This document shows, in pieces, positions 27,114-58,862 of a DNA stretch of 64,000 bases. This stretch comes from Spirochaetota bacterium (lineage in GTDB: Bacteria > Spirochaetota > UBA4802 > UBA5550): positions 1 through 64,000 of the forward strand of contig QKCL01000052.1 of assembly GCA_003246895.1 (NCBI GenBank), written 5' to 3'. Each line of letters starts with the position of its first letter. Within the stretch, counting starts at the first letter, position 1. The notes beneath the pieces are model-generated. The model did no database searches. It worked only from the letters and a program-made list of their open reading frames with translations, and was not told where the DNA came from. The position numbers were made by a program, and so were the translations under genes.

Positions 27114-27320
27114 ATCATATCCTTAATGATTTGCATTCATTCAGAACAAAAAGTCAGGCAACGTTCCGCCTATACCGTCTGATGCTTAATGTAAGCAACT
27201 AAATTTTAAGTATTACAGACTCTGCAAAAGCAAGAAATTTTTAATACTAAAAGTGACGAGTATGCACCCGGGCCGGCTATGGGAACACCCCCATTCAGGA
27301 TTCACGGGCAAAAAAGAAAC

Positions 27321-27402
27321 TTTTTTTGTATTTTTTGAACTTTTTTTTACCGAACAGGACTGAGCAGGACTGGCCAGGACTGGCCAGGACTGGAGAAATC
27401 CG
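27321..27402 (+). repeat. Phased T-tracts plus 10-bp direct repeats (copy A)
   Basis: T-runs start at 27321, 27331 and 27341, exactly 10 bp apart. From 27355 there are four consecutive 10-bp units CAGGACTGAG, CAGGACTGGC, CAGGACTGGC and CAGGACTGGA, then GAAATCCG. The final 18 bases (27385-27402) are identical to 57916-57933. The array ends 31 bp before the -24 element of a sigma-54 promoter. Phased T-tracts are expected to curve DNA; the repeats look like same-face activator sites. Confidence 0.8.
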
Positions 27403-27430
27403 TCCCCTCTCAGTTGGCCATTTCATAAAC

Positions 27431-27448
27431 TTGGCATAAAACATGCTT
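27431..27448 (+). promoter_or_regulatory. Sigma-54 promoter upstream of amylosucrase
   Basis: TTGGCATAAAACATGCTT carries GG (27433-27434) and GC (27445-27446) with exactly ten bases between, the invariant -24/-12 spacing of RpoN promoters. The element is preceded by the repeat array as in copy B. Confidence 0.75.
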
Positions 27449-27778
27449 TATATTTTGTACAATACAAGGAAGAGAAAAATATTATATGAACGATGAACAG
27501 GGATAAAAAAGCATATCATTAAAGGATTCTCCAATCCCAATCATTATGATTATTGACCCGATTAAAATGCACCAGGATATGAAATATAAATACAATATTC
27601 ATCCGTGCACATACGGCAAATACATGATTCATAAAGAATCTTTTATCTCCATGGATCCGACGTTTCTCAGCCCAGGTTCACAGCAGGACTTTACAATCCA
27701 AAAAGAAAATATTGGCAGATACATAATTATTGACATTATTTATCAATTAGTATTTGTTCCCAATTATTCTATTTTTAA

Positions 27779-29731
27779 ATGCAGGCAGAAAAATTGAATC
27801 CGGAAAATGAGAGAAGACAGATTGCTACGATTTTCAACAGGCTTTCGGACCTGGCTGAGAATTACTCAATTCATGCCGGCTCCAGAGACATTCTTGATTT
27901 CAAGGTGAGACTGATAAATCACTGGGAGGATCTCTACAACGACCTCAGGTCATTATACGGAGAAAGTGAGTGCTTTCAGGATAATCTCATTGATCTCATG
28001 GACCTCATGCTCCGGTCATGGAGCAAAAGGCCCGATGACCTTAAAATACACGACAAGTTGAGGGAGAAAAATCCAAAATGGCACCAGTCCCGGGACACCG
28101 TGGGCGGGGTACTTTATGTTGACCTCTTCAGCAGAAATCTCCGGGGGCTCCATGAACAGATAGATTACTTCAAGGAGATAGGCCTTACCTATCTTCATCT
28201 CATGCCTCTCTTTGCCGTACCACATGAGGAGAATGACGGAGGATACGCCGTAAGCAATTACAGGGCAGTGAACCCCGATCTGGGTTCATTTGATGAACTG
28301 TCTGAACTTGCAGTGCTTCTGAGACAGGAGGGAATAAGCCTTGTCCTCGATTTTGTATTCAACCACACTTCAAACGAACACAGATGGGCCATGGCTGCAA
28401 GAAACGGAGACCCGGAACATCAAAAATTTTACCACATATTCGACACACGGGAAATCCCGGACAGGTATGAAGAGACACTGAGGGAAATTTTTCCCACTGT
28501 AAGGAAGGGAAGTTTCACTTACTGCCAGGACTGCTCAAAATGGGTCTGGACGACCTTCAACAGCTACCAGTGGGACCTGAATTATTCCAATCAGAAAGTT
28601 TTCAACGCCATGACAGAAGAGATGCTTTATCTGGCAAATTCCGGAGTTGAAATATTAAGGCTTGATGCGGTTGCATTTATCTGGAAAAAGATGGGCACAA
28701 CATGTGAGAACCTCCCGGAAGCCCATACAATAATAAGGGCCTTCAATTCAATTGCAAGAATTGCAGCTCCGTCACTGCTCTTTAAATCCGAAGCTATTGT
28801 TCATCCAGATGATGTAATAAAGTACATAGGCACTGACCAGTGCCAGCTCTCATACAATCCAATGTATATGGCGCTGCTCTGGGAAGCAGCTGCGACAAGG
28901 AGCGTTTCGCTTTTACAGCATGCAATGTCAAAGAGGGTGACCATACCTGACGGATGTTCCTGGGTAAACTATCTGCGCTGCCACGATGATATCGGATGGA
29001 CATTTGATGACAACGATGCATGGGAAACCGGAATAAACCCCCATGACCACAGAAAATTTCTCAACAGCTTCTATACCGGAAGATTTGAGGGTACTTTCTC
29101 CAAGGGACTCCCCTTTCAGTTTAATCCTGAAACTGAGGATATGCGGGTTTCTGGAACACTGGCATCTCTTGCCGGGCTTGAACAGGCACTGGAACGCAAA
29201 GACCATCTCCTCATTGAAATGTCAGTTCTGAGAATCGCTATGCTCAGGAGCATCATAATAAGTTCAGCGGGAATCCCCCTTCTCTATCTGGGAGATGAAT
29301 GGGGCATGATGAATGACTATACATATCTCCACGACACCTCAAAGGCATCGGACAGCAGATGGGTTCACCGCTGCAGAAACAGATGGAGCAAAGGCGATTT
29401 CGAAAATTCCGATACAATTGAATGGCGGCTTTTCCACAATCTACAGAGGCTCATAAAACTCCGCAAAAAACTTCCCGCCATGAACAACGGGAAGATGACC
29501 ATTTTAAATTCAGGCAATGACCATGTCTATTCTTTCACAAGAAGCAACGGGTCACAGAAAATTCTTGTACTGGCAAATTTTACTGAAGCAGAACAGAGAA
29601 TCAATTTAAAACATATTCACGGCCTGGAACGGATCAGCGAAGCCCATGACCACACATCTGAAAATAATCCGGTCAATAGGGAGAATATTTTATTGACTCC
29701 ATACCAGTTCCTGTGGCTTGAAATAAAGTAG
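27779..29731 (+). CDS. Amylosucrase-type glycoside hydrolase family 13 enzyme
   Basis: This 650-residue (beta/alpha)8-barrel enzyme probably uses sucrose to extend alpha-1,4-glucan, releasing fructose. It has an N-terminal helical domain (1-90). The GH13 motifs are LVLDFVFNHTSNEH near 191-204, the nucleophile in EILRLDAVAFIWKKMGTTCENLP near 293-315, the acid/base Glu in LLFKSEAIVHPDDV near 337-350, and NYLRCHDDIGWTF near 396-408. These match amylosucrases closely rather than generic amylases. A start at ATG 27779 or TTG 27794 is possible, since neither has a clear ribosome site. Expression likely depends on the sigma-54 promoter 330 bp upstream. Confidence 0.87.
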   Translation: MQAEKLNPENERRQIATIFNRLSDLAENYSIHAGSRDILDFKVRLINHWEDLYNDLRSLYGESECFQDNLIDLMDLMLRSWSKRPDDLKIHDKLREKNPKWHQSRDTVGGVLYVDLFSRNLRGLHEQIDYFKEIGLTYLHLMPLFAVPHEENDGGYAVSNYRAVNPDLGSFDELSELAVLLRQEGISLVLDFVFNHTSNEHRWAMAARNGDPEHQKFYHIFDTREIPDRYEETLREIFPTVRKGSFTYCQDCSKWVWTTFNSYQWDLNYSNQKVFNAMTEEMLYLANSGVEILRLDAVAFIWKKMGTTCENLPEAHTIIRAFNSIARIAAPSLLFKSEAIVHPDDVIKYIGTDQCQLSYNPMYMALLWEAAATRSVSLLQHAMSKRVTIPDGCSWVNYLRCHDDIGWTFDDNDAWETGINPHDHRKFLNSFYTGRFEGTFSKGLPFQFNPETEDMRVSGTLASLAGLEQALERKDHLLIEMSVLRIAMLRSIIISSAGIPLLYLGDEWGMMNDYTYLHDTSKASDSRWVHRCRNRWSKGDFENSDTIEWRLFHNLQRLIKLRKKLPAMNNGKMTILNSGNDHVYSFTRSNGSQKILVLANFTEAEQRINLKHIHGLERISEAHDHTSENNPVNRENILLTPYQFLWLEIK

Positions 29732-29789: not shown

Positions 29790-30836
29790 TTGACAATAAA
29801 CATATTATCACCTGCAGAATTTCTCTATAAATCTCCAGAACTTGTAATATTCGACACAAGGTCTCCCGGTGAATTTTCAAAGGGACACATCCCGGGAGCT
29901 GTTAACCTGCCGCTATTCAATGACGATGAAAGGGCCGAAATCGGCACCCTCTACAAAGAGAAAGGCAGAGAAGCTGCTGTTCTCAGGGGACTTGAAATAA
30001 CCGGGCCGAAACTTGCCGGTTTTGTCAGATCTGTAAAATCCTTCACTGAAAAAAAACAGATTCTCATGCATTGCTGGAGAGGGGGAATGCGGAGCAGTTC
30101 CATGGCCTGGCTCCTTGAAACTGCGGGCTTCCATGTATTCCTGCTGGAAGGCGGATACAAATCATACCGCAAATACATAAGGGAGCAGTTCTCGATAAAG
30201 GCAGAGAAACTCGTCGTCCTTGGAGGAATGACAGGCACTGGAAAGACAGATATACTTGCTGAACTGAAGAAATCAGGAGAACAGGTCATTGACCTTGAAA
30301 TGATTGCAAATCACAAGGGCTCTGCATTCGGGACAATCGGAATGAATGAGCAGCCCTCCAATGAACAGTTTGAAAATGACCTCTACCGTGACTGGTCGAA
30401 GCTGGACCTCGGCAGACAGATATGGCTTGAAGACGAAAGCAAAAAAATCGGAAAGGTGGAAATAAACGATCCCCTTTTCCTACAGATGAGGGAGGCTAAA
30501 CTTGTAAAGATCTCCCTTCCCAGAGAGATGAGAATACAACGCCTCATAAATGACTACTGCAGAGTATCCCCCGAAGAGCTCATAATGCCTGTAAAAAAGA
30601 TAAGCAGAAAACTCGGAGGCCTGCGGGAAATGGAAATAATAGATCATATCAGCAACGGAGAATTCCATGACGCCATATCAAAGGTACTGGATTACTATGA
30701 CAGGGGATACGGATACGGCAACTCAAAAAGGGACCAGAACAGGGTATTTGACATTGAACTGACAGAAAACTCTCCTTTAAAAGCAGCGCTTATTCTCAAA
30801 GAGTTCACAGAGACCAGCGGATTTACTGAAGCCTGA
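29790..30836 (+). CDS. mnmH: tRNA 2-selenouridine synthase
   Basis: This 348-residue enzyme replaces sulfur by selenium in 2-thiouridine at wobble position 34 of tRNAs, using selenophosphate and a geranylated intermediate. The N-terminal rhodanese domain carries the catalytic Cys95 in LMHCWRGGMRSSS. The C-terminal half has a P-loop GGMTGTGKTD near 145-154. Translation starts at TTG (29790) after AGGAG. It converges on aroK, and the two stop regions overlap by 14 bases. Selenophosphate synthetase is not in this window, so its presence elsewhere is implied. Together with the MnmC-like domain at 54422-56407 it points to fully modified wobble uridines. Confidence 0.92.
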   Translation: MTINILSPAEFLYKSPELVIFDTRSPGEFSKGHIPGAVNLPLFNDDERAEIGTLYKEKGREAAVLRGLEITGPKLAGFVRSVKSFTEKKQILMHCWRGGMRSSSMAWLLETAGFHVFLLEGGYKSYRKYIREQFSIKAEKLVVLGGMTGTGKTDILAELKKSGEQVIDLEMIANHKGSAFGTIGMNEQPSNEQFENDLYRDWSKLDLGRQIWLEDESKKIGKVEINDPLFLQMREAKLVKISLPREMRIQRLINDYCRVSPEELIMPVKKISRKLGGLREMEIIDHISNGEFHDAISKVLDYYDRGYGYGNSKRDQNRVFDIELTENSPLKAALILKEFTETSGFTEA

Positions 30837-51268: not shown

Positions 51269-51280
51269 GGAGTGAGCACC

Positions 51281-52699
51281 ATGAAACCAGGATTCTTTTT
51301 ACTCATAATGACCATAATAATCTGCTCACTCTGCGGTTGCGGAAATCTGGTCGGAGACTGCATAAATGACATATCCACCGATCCATGGTTAAAACCTTTT
51401 GGAGGCACAGGCACCGATGTAGGCCGCTCCGTTGCAGTGGATGAACACGGCAATGTCTATATGTCAGGATACTTTAAGGGAACCGTCGATTTCGGAGGCG
51501 GAGATATAACTTCAAATGGAGGCTCAGACATCTTTTTGGCCAAGTATTCATCGGACGGAACATTTTTATGGGTGAAAACTTTCGGAGATACCTCTGATGA
51601 TGTCGGCTATTCCGTAGCGGTAGACTCAAATGATAATGCCTATGTGGCAGGATACTTTGCAGGAACCGTCGACTTCGGAGGCGGAACTGTCACATCAAGC
51701 GGACCCGCTGATATATTTCTGGCAAAGTATTCACCGGACGGCACCTGCCTGTGGGTAAAATTTTTCGGAGGCACAAGCGATGATATTGGATTTTCCGTTG
51801 CAGTCGACAGAAATGGAAATGCCTATGTTACAGGATACTTTCAGGGGACCGCTGATTTCGGAGGCGGAAGTGTCACATCAAGTGGAAGCTATGATGTAGT
51901 TATTGCAAAATATTCATCAACCGGGACATTCCTATGGGCTAAAACCTTCGGAAGCACAGGTGCTGATCTTGGTTTTTCCCTTGCAATAGACAGAAACGGA
52001 AATGCCTATGTTACAGGGTACTTTCAGGGAACCGCCGATTTCGGAGGCGGGAGTGTCACGTCAAACGGAGCCGCTGATATATTTGTGGCAAAATATTCAT
52101 CAACCGGGACATTCCTATGGGCTAAAACTTTTGGGGATACAACGGCTTCAAATACCAGTGATGATTACGGCTATTCCCTGGCAGTAGATGCAAACGAAAA
52201 TGTCTATGTCTCAGGATTCTTTAACGGAACCGCTGATTTCGGAGGTGGGAGTATCACATCAAATGGAGCCGCTGATATATTTCTGGCAAAATATTCATCA
52301 ACCGGGACATTCCTATGGGCTAAAACCTTCGGGGATACCACAGCTTCAAATGCCAACGATGATTATGGCTCTTCCCTGACAGTAGATGCAAACGAAAATG
52401 TTTATATCACAGGATTCTTTAACGGAACCGCTGATTTCGGAGGCGGAGATGTCTCTTCAAACGGAAGCTCAGATATCTTTGTGGCGAAATATTCATCTGG
52501 CGGGACATTCCTATGGGCTAAAACTTTCGGAGATACAACGGCTTCAAACACAAGCACTGATCAGGGAATGTCCGTTGCAGTGGACGCAAGCCATAACATC
52601 TATGTTACAGGGTTCTTTAACGGAACGATCAGCACTGATTCAGGGACTGCCGTTTCAAGCGGGGCCGAGGATGTCTTTCTGATTAAGTATATTCAGTGA
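51281..52699 (+). CDS. Lipoprotein with seven SBBP beta-propeller repeats
   Basis: The 472-residue protein has a signal peptide (MKPGFFLLIMTIIICSLCGC) with an LCGC-type lipobox, cysteine near residue 20. It then has seven repeats of about 60-64 residues, each with a WxKxFG start, xGxSxAVDxNGNxYVTGYFxGTxDFGGG and SxGxxDIFxAKYSxxGTFLW. Seven units suggest a complete seven-bladed propeller. Repeats 3-6 are very similar even at the DNA level, showing recent duplication; repeats 5-7 carry a TTASN insertion. ATG 51281 is chosen for the AAGGAG upstream. Such proteins are exposed surface binders; the ligand is unknown. Confidence 0.88.
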   Translation: MKPGFFLLIMTIIICSLCGCGNLVGDCINDISTDPWLKPFGGTGTDVGRSVAVDEHGNVYMSGYFKGTVDFGGGDITSNGGSDIFLAKYSSDGTFLWVKTFGDTSDDVGYSVAVDSNDNAYVAGYFAGTVDFGGGTVTSSGPADIFLAKYSPDGTCLWVKFFGGTSDDIGFSVAVDRNGNAYVTGYFQGTADFGGGSVTSSGSYDVVIAKYSSTGTFLWAKTFGSTGADLGFSLAIDRNGNAYVTGYFQGTADFGGGSVTSNGAADIFVAKYSSTGTFLWAKTFGDTTASNTSDDYGYSLAVDANENVYVSGFFNGTADFGGGSITSNGAADIFLAKYSSTGTFLWAKTFGDTTASNANDDYGSSLTVDANENVYITGFFNGTADFGGGDVSSNGSSDIFVAKYSSGGTFLWAKTFGDTTASNTSTDQGMSVAVDASHNIYVTGFFNGTISTDSGTAVSSGAEDVFLIKYIQ

Positions 52700-54421: not shown

Positions 54422-56407
54422 ATGAGCCGTCTCTCTTTTTCAGTCCAGACAACAACACCTGACAGCGCCGCAAGGGCCTGTACATTTACCACACTCCACA
54501 ACAAAGTGGAGACACCTGTATTCATGCCCGTAGCAACAATGGCGGCACTGAGGTCACAGCATACAGACAGTGTGGAGAGCATGGGTTTCCCTGTGCTGCT
54601 TGCAAACACATACCACCTTCTGCTTCGACCTGGCATCGAGGTATTCAGGGACTTCGGCGGCATACACGGCTTCATGCAGTGGCCCAGATCTGTACTGACA
54701 GACTCGGGCGGATTCCAGATCTTTTCTCTCTCAAAAAATGTGAAGATCACAGATAAAGGCGCATCCTTCAGAAGCTATGTTGACGGAAGAGAAATACTCC
54801 TCACTCCTTCAAAAAGCATTGAAACACAGCGGCACATAAACAGCGATATAATGATGGCACTGGACCAGTGCATAAACTCAACCTCATCAAAAGAGGAGTG
54901 CATGGCAGCACTCGACATCACGGCGAGGTGGGCGCAGGAGAGCCTCGCCGCAAGGGGCGACTCACCGCAGTCCATCTTCGGAATTGTACAGGGGGGATGT
55001 TTTGAAGAGCTTAGAAGACTGAGCGCAAGCCAGATAACATCTCTCCCCTTTGACGGCTTTGCCATCGGAGGACTTGCCGTGGGGGAAACAGACGATGAAC
55101 GCAAGGATATGACAGAGCTCACGGCAGCACTTCTTCCCGCAAACTACCCGCGGTACCTCATGGGAGTGGGAACCCCCATAGACCTGCTGGAGGCTGTTCA
55201 CAGAGGGGTGGACATGTTCGACTGCATTCTGCCAACAGCCATGGGCCAGCAGGGTGTCGCATGGACAACACACGGCCGCATAGAACTGCGCCGCACTGTC
55301 CATAAATTTGTCCACCGCCCCCTTGACGAGGAATGCACCTGCCCCACATGCAGAAAATATTCCAGGGCATACCTCCACCACCTGATAAAGTCAGATGAGT
55401 ATCTGGGAGCCCAGCTTGTGGGCATACACAACCTCCACTTCTACAAGACGCTCATGGACACAATGCGCGCGAAAATACTGGAAGGCACATTCTTTGAATA
55501 CTATAAATTCATGAAGGAGGAGCTGGTGCGCCCGGACATGGACCACCCGGTCACTCCTCCGAAAAAGAAAAAAAGAAAAAACCATGACTGCCTGGAAAAC
55601 TGGTCTGTCATTCAGTCCCCCGAAGGGTGGTACACCATCATGGACAGCGAGTCGGGAGAAAAGTTCCACTCCGTCAATGACCCATACGAAGAGGCGCGGT
55701 CACTCTATATAGAACCTCTCTTTGAAAAGCTGAAGAACAGTGACATGACAGTGTGGGATGTGGGCCTTGGAGGGGGAACCAACTCCATGCTTGCTCTTAT
55801 GGAATATGAAAAACGCATCACCCATGGGGAGAATCTTAAAAAGTTCAGGGTCCTCAGTTTTGAAAAGGACCTTAACCCCTTCATACTGGCCAACCGTCAG
55901 AACAGGCGATTTCCCCATATGCATCACAGGGCTCCTTCAAAATTCATAAGTGAGGGAGAGTGGATTTCAGATGATGCAATGGTTCAGTGGAAGCTCATTG
56001 AAGGAGATTTCACTGAGACAATGACACAAGCAGAAAAGCCTGACATGATCTGGTACGATATGTTCTCAATAAAAAGCGTACCCCGGCTTTGGGGATACTC
56101 TGTATTCTCAAAACTTGGCGCATACATTCAGAACAGGGAGTGTTCCCTTCACACCTACTCTGACTCAACTGCACTGAGGGCTGCACTCCTTGCATCGGGC
56201 TTCAGTGTTGCAGAGGGCCCTGCAGCAGGTCCCAAAGCAGCAACCACAAAGGCCTTTCTTAACAGTATGCCAGAGGGCGAAACATTTCTTGATCAGTCAT
56301 GGCTGGCGAGGTTCAAAAGAAGCAGCGCACAGTTTGTGGAGGGCACCAGTGAGGAAGATCAGAAGGTCATCCTTGAAAGAGTGGTGAACCACAAACAGTT
56401 CAAATAA
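54422..56407 (+). CDS. tgt: Fused queuine tRNA-ribosyltransferase and MnmC-like methyltransferase
   Basis: The 661-residue protein joins two tRNA wobble-base enzymes. Residues 1-372 are bacterial TGT, which exchanges guanine-34 for a queuosine precursor. They include Asp94 in DSGGFQ, LDQC at 147-150, GGLAVGE near 216-222, the nucleophile Asp267 in MFDCILPT, and zinc ligands CTCPTC (305-310) with His336. The usual RNARNG after PT is replaced by AMGQQG, a variant subfamily. A lysine-rich linker (about 378-388) leads to a MnmC/DUF752-like methyltransferase with VWDVGLGGGTNS (444-455), LSFEKD, and IWYDMFS. The MnmC oxidase half is absent. Confidence 0.88.
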   Translation: MSRLSFSVQTTTPDSAARACTFTTLHNKVETPVFMPVATMAALRSQHTDSVESMGFPVLLANTYHLLLRPGIEVFRDFGGIHGFMQWPRSVLTDSGGFQIFSLSKNVKITDKGASFRSYVDGREILLTPSKSIETQRHINSDIMMALDQCINSTSSKEECMAALDITARWAQESLAARGDSPQSIFGIVQGGCFEELRRLSASQITSLPFDGFAIGGLAVGETDDERKDMTELTAALLPANYPRYLMGVGTPIDLLEAVHRGVDMFDCILPTAMGQQGVAWTTHGRIELRRTVHKFVHRPLDEECTCPTCRKYSRAYLHHLIKSDEYLGAQLVGIHNLHFYKTLMDTMRAKILEGTFFEYYKFMKEELVRPDMDHPVTPPKKKKRKNHDCLENWSVIQSPEGWYTIMDSESGEKFHSVNDPYEEARSLYIEPLFEKLKNSDMTVWDVGLGGGTNSMLALMEYEKRITHGENLKKFRVLSFEKDLNPFILANRQNRRFPHMHHRAPSKFISEGEWISDDAMVQWKLIEGDFTETMTQAEKPDMIWYDMFSIKSVPRLWGYSVFSKLGAYIQNRECSLHTYSDSTALRAALLASGFSVAEGPAAGPKAATTKAFLNSMPEGETFLDQSWLARFKRSSAQFVEGTSEEDQKVILERVVNHKQFK

Positions 56408-56594: not shown

Positions 56595-57182
56595 TCACTC
56601 GATTTCCCCATAAACGCCGTCCCATTTTTCCGGGTCGACCAGCTTTATTCCCGGGACGGGGTTTTCTGTAAAAAATGAAATCAATTTATCCTCAATCATT
56701 ATCATTCTGCGCAAAAGATGAACACGATAGATGTCCCCGTGAAACACATCCGAGTCTTTGATAACCAGTTTTTCCACCAAACTAATACCTTTCACGACAC
56801 CATCAATAACGGTGGCATTACATTCTGTTTTATCGGTATCCACACAATCCACTATCCCCAATATATTTGCCGCATAAAACCCTGATTTCGGTGAACCGCC
56901 TTTACGCTCTATCACTGTTGCAGGGTAATAATCGATATTGTCAACATGAAGACTGGTTAAAGATTGCCTGAGCCTCTCTGACACCACGGGGCATGCATCA
57001 TCACTCACCATAAAGTCTGCAATCCCCTTCGATGAATCTTCACATATAAACTCCAGCCGCGATAAATCGTATCTGTTTTTAATTGGTACAGCCTTGTTCC
57101 AGACAGATTTAAAACAGGAGGCATTATCAGACAGCGTTAAAGTTGATACTGATACATAATCCGGACACAAAAACCTTTTCAT
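56595..57182 (-). CDS. Immunity protein of the Imm11/DUF1629 type
   Basis: The 195-residue acidic soluble protein has the pattern of DUF1629/Imm11 family members: a mixed N-terminal domain, then FMVSDDACPVVSERLRQSLTSL, VDCVDTDKTECNAT, LVIKDSDVFHGDIYRVHLLRRMIMIEDKLISFF and a PGIKLVDP end. Such proteins neutralise the C-terminal toxins of contact-dependent or polymorphic toxin systems. Its ATG starts immediately after a stop codon closing a 46-codon stub that reads as a toxin tail (57183-57320). That gap of zero bases is typical of toxin-immunity pairs. The rest of the toxin is absent, so this is an orphan immunity gene. Confidence 0.65.
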   Translation of the reverse strand: MKRFLCPDYVSVSTLTLSDNASCFKSVWNKAVPIKNRYDLSRLEFICEDSSKGIADFMVSDDACPVVSERLRQSLTSLHVDNIDYYPATVIERKGGSPKSGFYAANILGIVDCVDTDKTECNATVIDGVVKGISLVEKLVIKDSDVFHGDIYRVHLLRRMIMIEDKLISFFTENPVPGIKLVDPEKWDGVYGEIE

Positions 57183-57323: not shown

Positions 57324-57860
57324 CTCAGGTTTTTACTGCACACAACAACTGTAAACTACTTCCGATATGAGGTCCAATGTCTTTTACAAAGCATTTTGCC
57401 CTTAATACACGGTATACTATTCAACACAGTTTCCTAAAAAAAAGAATCTCTTCTCTGAAATGGTGCACACCAGGTGCACCCTCGTTAGTTTTCATGGCTC
57501 ACCACTTTCTTATAACGTGATGCTCATAACCGCAATGCGGATATGGGTGCAAATACGCATTGCGGTTATGGGACTCTCTGAGAATAGAGCATAATGACTG
57601 AAAGTCAAGTGGACTTTTTATTCTTTACTATGGAATTTCCTGAAACCTTTGCATAAATCATAGCGGCTTTTCTACTCCGGTGCACTGTAAATTCCTGAAT
57701 ATATACCGTATAAATTCCATGTTCACAGAGGTGTGCCGCAGCACTTTTTCAGTGAAAAACCCGGTAAAATTCACCTATAATTCACCAAATCTGACTGAAT
57801 CTCCTCTCCTCAAATTGCTCTTTAATGGTCTTCAGGTACGGGAAATGAAAAAAAATGAAC
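57324..57860. other. Non-coding region with hairpins
   Basis: This region contains a small GGTGCAC/GTGCACC hairpin (57462-57468/57474-57480) and the 15-bp perfect inverted repeat at 57525-57570. A 97-codon frame at 57680-57973 runs through the repeat element and is not credible. Confidence 0.4.
57525..57570. repeat. Perfect 15-bp inverted repeat
   Basis: CATAACCGCAATGCG (57525-57539) and its exact complement (57556-57570) flank a 16-base spacer. No flanking gene ends here, so it may be an end-repeat relic or a strong RNA hairpin. Confidence 0.5.
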
Positions 57861-57933
57861 TTTTTTTGCCTTTTTTTGCACTTTTTTTTATTGGAGAAGA
57901 CTGGACAAGACTGGGCAGGACTGGAGAAATCCG
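57861..57933 (+). repeat. Phased T-tracts plus 10-bp direct repeats (copy B)
   Basis: T-runs start at 57861, 57871 and 57882, close to 10 bp apart. Then come three 10-bp units GAAGACTGGA, CAAGACTGGG and CAGGACTGGA (57896-57925), followed by GAAATCCG. The last 18 bases equal those of copy A at 27385-27402. The array ends 32 bp before a sigma-54 -24 element. Confidence 0.8.
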
Positions 57934-57962
57934 AAGCACCCCAAGAGACCTCTTTTGGCAAT

Positions 57963-57980
57963 TTGGCACATAATGTGCTT
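57963..57980 (+). promoter_or_regulatory. Sigma-54 promoter upstream of enoyl-CoA hydratase
   Basis: TTGGCACATAATGTGCTT has GG (57965-57966) and GC (57977-57978) ten bases apart, with the favoured TGGCAC form of the -24 box. A leader of about 125 bases runs to the start at 58116, containing a CGGTCTCGACCG palindrome. Confidence 0.8.
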
Positions 57981-58115
57981 GTAGACATATAGGAAAATCG
58001 GTCTCGACCGTTCCCTACACACCTCGACATGACATTATGTTTTTTAATTGATAAATAGATTCATTTCACCTAATCTGAAAGAGGCATCCATAAAATTACA
58101 TGTAAGGAGAAGTCT

Positions 58116-58862
58116 ATGCTGCAGTTTACAAATGAAGACAGTTACAATATTATCCGCCTTGATAACGGTATTCCCAATGCCCTGAGCTCTTCTCTCATAG
58201 ACCGGTTTGACAATCTTCTTGATGAGGCGGCAGAGCAGAGACTCCCCCTGGTCATTGCAGGCAATACCAAGTTCTTTTCCATGGGCCTGAACCTGCCCGA
58301 GGTTATTGAATTTTCCCGGGACAAGTTCACAGATTACATTAAAAAATTTGATATGCTTGTTCATAAACTATATACACTGCCTGTTCCCGTTGTCTGCGCC
58401 CTGGAAGGACATGCTGTTGCCGGCGGAGCCATTCTTGCCCTGGCATGCGACATGAGGATCGGATCAGACGAATCAAAAAAGTTCGGCTGCAACGAGGCCC
58501 AGCTCGGGGTCCCTGTACCATACCTCCCGTCAATGATTTTCCGCAATATTGCCGGCCATCAGGCAGCAGATAAACTTATGTATCAGGGAACCCTCCTCTC
58601 CTTTCAGGATGCATTGAAATACGGGCTCATCGACAGGCTTGTACCTGCAGCGGATATTGTTTCATCTGCAATTGAAAGTGCAAAACTCATGGTACAGGGG
58701 TCAGTTGAAGCTTTCTCAATAATGAAGGCCATGAAGACAGAACCTGTCAGTGAAAAATTTCAGAAGCATAATGACAGCTATACAGAGAGGTTCATTCAAT
58801 GCTGGTATGATCCGTCGAGCCAGAACCTGATCCATCTGGCAGCCCGGCACTTTCAGAATTAG
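58116..58862 (+). CDS. Enoyl-CoA hydratase/isomerase family protein
   Basis: The 248-residue crotonase-fold protein probably hydrates, isomerises or hydrolyses an acyl-CoA. The oxyanion-hole segments are AGNTKFFSMGLNLPEV near 49-64 and ALEGHAVAGGAILALACDMRIG near 92-113. The catalytic Glu region reads CNEAQLGVPVPYLP near 122-135. The substitution pattern leaves hydratase against isomerase open. AAGGAGA precedes the ATG. It is alone under a sigma-54 promoter of the same special type as amylosucrase. Confidence 0.85.
   Translation: MLQFTNEDSYNIIRLDNGIPNALSSSLIDRFDNLLDEAAEQRLPLVIAGNTKFFSMGLNLPEVIEFSRDKFTDYIKKFDMLVHKLYTLPVPVVCALEGHAVAGGAILALACDMRIGSDESKKFGCNEAQLGVPVPYLPSMIFRNIAGHQAADKLMYQGTLLSFQDALKYGLIDRLVPAADIVSSAIESAKLMVQGSVEAFSIMKAMKTEPVSEKFQKHNDSYTERFIQCWYDPSSQNLIHLAARHFQN

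Follow-up and report, generated by a model that had tools for sequence, protein, structure and literature searches.

A stereotyped bend, repeat-array and promoter cassette, likely sigma-54-dependent, present in eight copies in a Spirochaetota genome

The stretch of DNA that precedes an enoyl-CoA hydratase gene in this Spirochaetota genome is likely to be a sigma-54 (RpoN) promoter core together with its upstream control region, and belongs to a stereotyped eight-copy cassette that would wire scattered genes into a single regulon. As a set, the copies probably form a sigma-54 regulon that is dispersed over the genome, shares an enhancer of stereotyped design and has been spread by copying. An earlier note, drawn up from the window (the whole 64,000-nt stretch of DNA that was analysed), had described two copies, an observation that was right but understated: the genome holds eight.

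Anatomy of the element

Read 5' to 3', the copies present an A-run, phased T-tracts, 10-bp units, a linker and a TTGGCA-N7-TGC core. Each copy has three T-tracts (four in copy D) spaced ~10-12 bp apart, and the units, which fall into two related types (ACTGGNCAGG and ACCGAACAAG/TCCGACCAGG), begin directly after the last T-tract, with four to six ~10-bp units standing in tandem before a linker of ~23 bp. In copy B, located before the hydratase gene, the sequence reads as an A-run at 57848-57855 preceding T-runs at 57861-57867, 57871-57877 and 57882-57889, and this combination of A-run and three helically phased T-tracts (57848-57889, plus strand) is assigned as an intrinsic bend on sequence, T-block identity and predicted curvature. 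It is followed on the same strand by an array of five 10-bp units (ATTGGAGAAG, ACTGGACAAG, ACTGGGCAGG, ACTGGAGAAA and TCCGAAGCAC; 57890-57939), evident in the sequence and in its lag-10 autocorrelation, by a linker of fixed length (57940-57962), and by the promoter core TTGGCACATAATGTGCTT (57963-57980), in which N10 separates GG (57965-57966) from GC (57977-57978). The enoyl-CoA hydratase/isomerase gene behind it (58116-58862, plus strand; ECH_1, E 6.5e-36) has GGAG before its ATG and a predicted leader of ~126 nt from copy B, and its transcription would depend on the cassette. On the other side of copy B, an Imm11-family immunity-like protein is encoded on the minus strand (window 56595-57182), and the ~660 nt between this gene and the element hold no ORF of at least 100 aa.

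Copy A shows the same anatomy on the plus strand, with an A-run and three phased T-tracts (27310-27348), an array of five to six 10-bp units ending in GAAATCCG (27349-27402) and the promoter core TTGGCATAAAACATGCTT (27431-27448). The gene behind it encodes a protein of the alpha-amylase family (GH13; 27779-29731, plus strand; Alpha-amylase, E 5.2e-38) that reaches the cut-off of none of the listed NCBIfam families, and the link between copy A and this gene is weaker because the predicted leader measures ~321 nt. Next after the amylase gene comes that of the tRNA 2-selenouridine synthase MnmH (window 29790-30836), which scores over its cut-off. The order of parts given for copy B in the earlier note (T-runs, 10-bp units, GAAATCCG, TTGGCAC-type promoter) is confirmed in the sequence, and the starting position proposed there, 57861, falls within the element, but the true start lies ~15 bp earlier. 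The proposed 32-bp spacer was mistaken, as GAAATCCG (57926-57933 in copy B, within the array) is separated from TTGGCA by 29 bp in copy B and by 28 bp in copy A (27403-27430). As a shared array end, GAAATCCG holds for copies A and B, and also for C, but it is not a family feature, the other five copies ending differently.

The periodicity and geometry of the cassette are maintained across its copies. Mean lag-10 identity of the eight arrays is 0.69, versus 0.30 for shuffled sequences (sd 0.027, maximum 0.39, 1000 shuffles). Between the last T-tract and the GG of the promoter the distance is 64, 66, 75, 75, 75, 75, 76 or 84 bp, and the last unit is fixed relative to that GG, position -33 being a C in every one of the eight copies; the differences in distance therefore correspond to whole units. 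They are also whole helical turns, and the data fit either reading equally. Mean pairwise identity among the copies rises from 26% upstream of the T-block to 83% within it, and amounts to 62% over the initial 30 bp of the array and a moderate 44% in the linker (26% when shuffled). The promoter core reaches 85%, and past the -12 box the value is 29% (27% when shuffled). Conservation thus stops at the -12 box, which fits a promoter with its upstream control region better than it fits a gene or an RNA, and does not fit an element whose ends lie past the promoter. Rfam searches of five sequence sources returned only a 5S rRNA, outside the element, and a search of four loci found no tRNA.

Curvature was predicted with dinucleotide wedge parameters. 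Under this wedge model, the 60 bp around the T-block bend by 56-76 degrees in all eight copies, which ranks them at the 99.75-100th percentile for the 64-kb window (99.95th for the T-block of copy B), and the 60 bp past the last T-tract are straight in the eight copies (1st-59th percentile). The predicted bend is hence confined to the T-block and lies outside the array, whereas in the classical sigma-54 loop the bend lies between array and promoter, a discrepancy that counts against the favoured reading.

Copy number and distribution

In the window, the joint pattern ACTTTTTT-N60-90-TTGGCA-N7-TGC occurs twice, and in 100 dinucleotide shuffles it does not occur at all. A profile search of the window likewise yields exactly two matches, at 57843-57983 (E 1.4e-34) and 27308-27453 (E 3.9e-29), both belonging to the training set of the profile. 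The earlier claim that copies A and B are the same element is supported. Pattern searches of the genome gave four copies (the window's two plus single copies on contigs C61 and C42), and a scan of the phylum by pattern gave two further copies from this same genome (contigs C28 and C66). A sequence-only profile built from these six finds eight copies in the 3.57-Mb genome, with E-values from 2.4e-33 to 6.9e-17, two of them (contigs C65 and C13) lying outside the training alignment and being new by profile. A gap separates the eight copies from weak matches with E of at least 0.02, and 18 matches in the genome pass E 1. Among other repeated sequences in the window, the ORF at 51272-52699 contains direct repeats spaced 183 and 198 nt (51386-52626) and encodes a repetitive protein. 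Apart from repeats, a single ORF at 54422-56407 carries a tRNA-guanine transglycosylase domain fused to a SAM-methyltransferase-like domain (Methyltransf_30) at the C-terminus.

Beyond this genome, the profile search found the element in none of 44 relatives, the nearest of which belongs to another genus (best E 1.2e-4), the filters used over more than 40 genomes being stricter, such that weak copies could be missed. Plasmids, phages and viral contigs gave no match in collections that may omit this genome and very near ones. Two matches in a named genome collection look by eye like chance matches in coding sequence, although one of them, the pattern-chosen L119, scores 21.5 bits (E 1.1e-5) against the profile. 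Among the decamer matches in three other genomes (L034-L036) and the profile matches in relatives, the eleven loci judged by eye look like chance, coding sequence or low-complexity T-runs. The phylum scan returned 20 other genomes with one match each, versus five control matches; these 20 loci, at one of which (L069) the search expression began at an earlier T-tract, were rejected with profile E-values no better than 0.069, and their lag-10 values range from 0.13 to 0.48, versus 0.55 to 0.79 in the six matches from this genome. Word searches of the open-access full-text literature recognized no such bend-array-sigma-54 cassette.

Machinery, adjoining genes and rival readings

All eight copies carry GG-N10-GC in a TTGGCA/TGC context. 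The genome encodes a single rpoN (PF04552, E 5.1e-57) and five strong sigma-54 activator AAA+ matches (PF00158, E 1.7e-73 to 9.9e-55), a count from which the four weaker of nine PF00158 matches were left out. The sigma-54 assignment made in the earlier note is supported by a well-formed -24/-12 core and by the encoded rpoN and activators. Exact genome matches to TTGGCA-N7-TGCTW number eight, of which seven are the element and one sits, by eye, in a chemoreceptor-like coding stretch; copy H, which carries TGCC, falls outside this pattern. Since the strict pattern, like the profile, was derived from the element, its matches do not count all sigma-54 promoters, and the site count is biased towards the element.

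The well-formed promoter, rpoN, the activators and the six further copies make a shared regulon likely, as had been suggested for copies A and B, but the theme of carbon storage or starvation attached to it is unsupported by the other neighbours and was rejected. Beyond the two copies in the window, copy C adjoins a hybrid histidine kinase gene (predicted leader of 316 nt), copy E the gene of a group B1 [FeFe] hydrogenase that scores above its NCBIfam cut-off (269 nt), copy G the gene of a metal-binding CxxCxxCC protein followed by a TauE exporter (104 nt, from a gene start chosen by eye), and copy H the genes for a periplasmic-sensor kinase with a solute-binding domain and for an NtrC-type regulator (225 nt), with a DctP protein encoded next. 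Within a few hundred bases of copy H, before the kinase-activator genes, is an IS3-type transposase gene (rve, HTH_21; L105:5475-6317, contig C13). Copies D and F lie between convergent genes and face, respectively, the 3' end of ahcY at 133 nt and that of an HxlR-type gene at 55 nt, which speaks against the favoured reading. Overall, six of the eight copies face start codons, a weak and non-significant indication of orientation towards genes (one-sided binomial P ~0.14 at p = 0.5, calculated by hand). Behind copy D, 131 nt fold with a z-score of -3.67 (2/200 shuffles as good); a ~105-nt stretch there (L071:4475-4610, contig C42) is a candidate small RNA, and the strong GC-rich hairpin at its end may also terminate ahcY.

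In the working proposed for the cassette, RNA polymerase-sigma-54 would sit closed on TTGGCA-N7-TGC, and an activator or partner protein would bind the 10-bp units side by side on one helix face, roughly between -58 and -100. A bend imposed by the phased T-tracts would wrap the upstream complex towards the polymerase, and ATP hydrolysis by the sigma-54 activator would then open the promoter. The units would provide the activator with its sites, and the best candidate activator system is the NtrC-type regulator and kinase behind copy H, because they are encoded behind the same element, an arrangement that suggests autoregulation. This regulator has a visible GAYTGA and a Fis-type HTH; its nearest match among the relatives searched (G026, 42% identity) stands in another context and, by eye, has no element in its flank, and a conserved activator operon in relatives was accordingly rejected. 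Regulators with a Fis-type HTH usually bind dyads, and the linker, proposed as a dyad site for the activator, was discarded as such when 161 of 500 shuffles reached its score, a mismatch that weighs against the favoured reading. The dyad score of the array is above shuffles (1/300 reaches the same), but repeats inflate the dyad test.

The position of copies D and F also bears on a different reading, which we consider unlikely: a dispersed intergenic repeat, resembling mobile-promoter DNA, copies itself and carries the sigma-54 site along, so that only some copies regulate. The two convergent settings among eight, the transposase gene near copy H, the absence from 44 relatives, the nearly alike arrays of G and H and, by eye, the extra upstream letters shared by C and G are in line with such a repeat. 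Against it, no conserved ends lie beyond the promoter; the flanks are at background identity, and no terminal inverted repeats are evident by eye, the conserved ends being A/T-tracts and TGCTT, which are not complementary. Part of the flanking ORFs of the other copies were scanned, and no transposase appeared among their proteins. The contrast between core and linker identity, moreover, suggests that selection acts on the promoter in every copy, including D and F.

Alternatively, a protein that is not an activator could read the 10-bp repeats as a ring or filament, gating or repressing the promoter while the activator acts elsewhere, an arrangement that appears improbable. Its model is MraZ, which binds (AAAGTGKN3)3 in Mollicutes and whose operator, as described, shares with the cassette direct repeats of 10-bp period, bound there by one oligomer (PMC5282649). 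The fixed phase of the units and their adjacency to the bend favour this possibility; the unit sequence nevertheless differs from that of MraZ, the likeness residing in the 10-bp direct-repeat period only (PMC5282649), and nothing else in the cassette is conserved to serve as the activator's own site. Lastly, the notion that short peptides of one family are encoded here, in place of a promoter, can be dismissed as extremely unlikely: an open frame runs across T-tracts and units in copies B, D, F and G (by eye in B, D and F), and the ORF through copy G joins the downstream protein, but DNA without TA steps leaves most frames open by composition, and a coding reading is rejected on uncompensated single-base indels between copies, on 10-bp units that are not a multiple of 3 and on a stop after four codons in the equivalent frame of copy C (by eye).

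Significance and comparison with known systems

As a probable sigma-54 control region, the cassette offers a compact and testable case of regulon assembly, with eight natural variants of four, five or six units on one promoter geometry. With these variants one can test whether output is set by the number of units and by helical phase, look for the protein that reads direct repeats of 10 bp at sigma-54 promoters, and ask if a promoter is able to spread as a cassette. It is conceivable, though doubtful, that the cassette is self-spreading, a bend-enhancer-promoter module multiplied eight times in one genome, covering nearly all strict-consensus sigma-54 sites and acting under one signal. In that case the kinase-activator operon of the cassette would share one signal with unrelated enzymes and with two sites that lack a gene, one of them having the candidate ~105-nt RNA, and output would be tuned via gain or loss of whole 10-bp units.

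Individual features of the cassette have counterparts in the systems described for other bacteria. In the Desulfovibrio vulgaris regulome, sigma-54 activators share operons with their targets or adjoin them, and can drive non-coding RNAs (PMC4641369). The likeness extends to GAFTGA-type activators, to activators encoded within or next to the loci they control, to some non-coding RNA targets and to the largest fraction of promoters lying within 100 nt of the activator site, but the sites reported in that account are inverted repeats or a palindrome, and no bend-plus-array cassette was found there, in contrast to the direct-repeat array and bend found here (PMC4641369). T/A tracts upstream of a promoter also set curvature and output in the T-tract rheostat of Helicobacter pylori sabA, which, as reported, acts on a sigma-70-type promoter through one variable tract, whereas the cassette combines a sigma-54 promoter with three or four tracts that hardly vary in length (PMC4081817). 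Sigma-54 activator sites are typically described as tandem repeats upstream of the -24/-12 elements, where curved DNA is likely, and the Nla28 promoters of Myxococcus xanthus resemble the cassette in their GG/GC core, their upstream tandem repeats and the curved DNA expected there (PMC7910581). The Nla28 promoters, in that description, carry two 8-bp half sites; in the cassette, four to six units of 10 bp share one helical phase and directly abut the phased T-tracts, and the whole is repeated as eight copies of a single design (PMC7910581).
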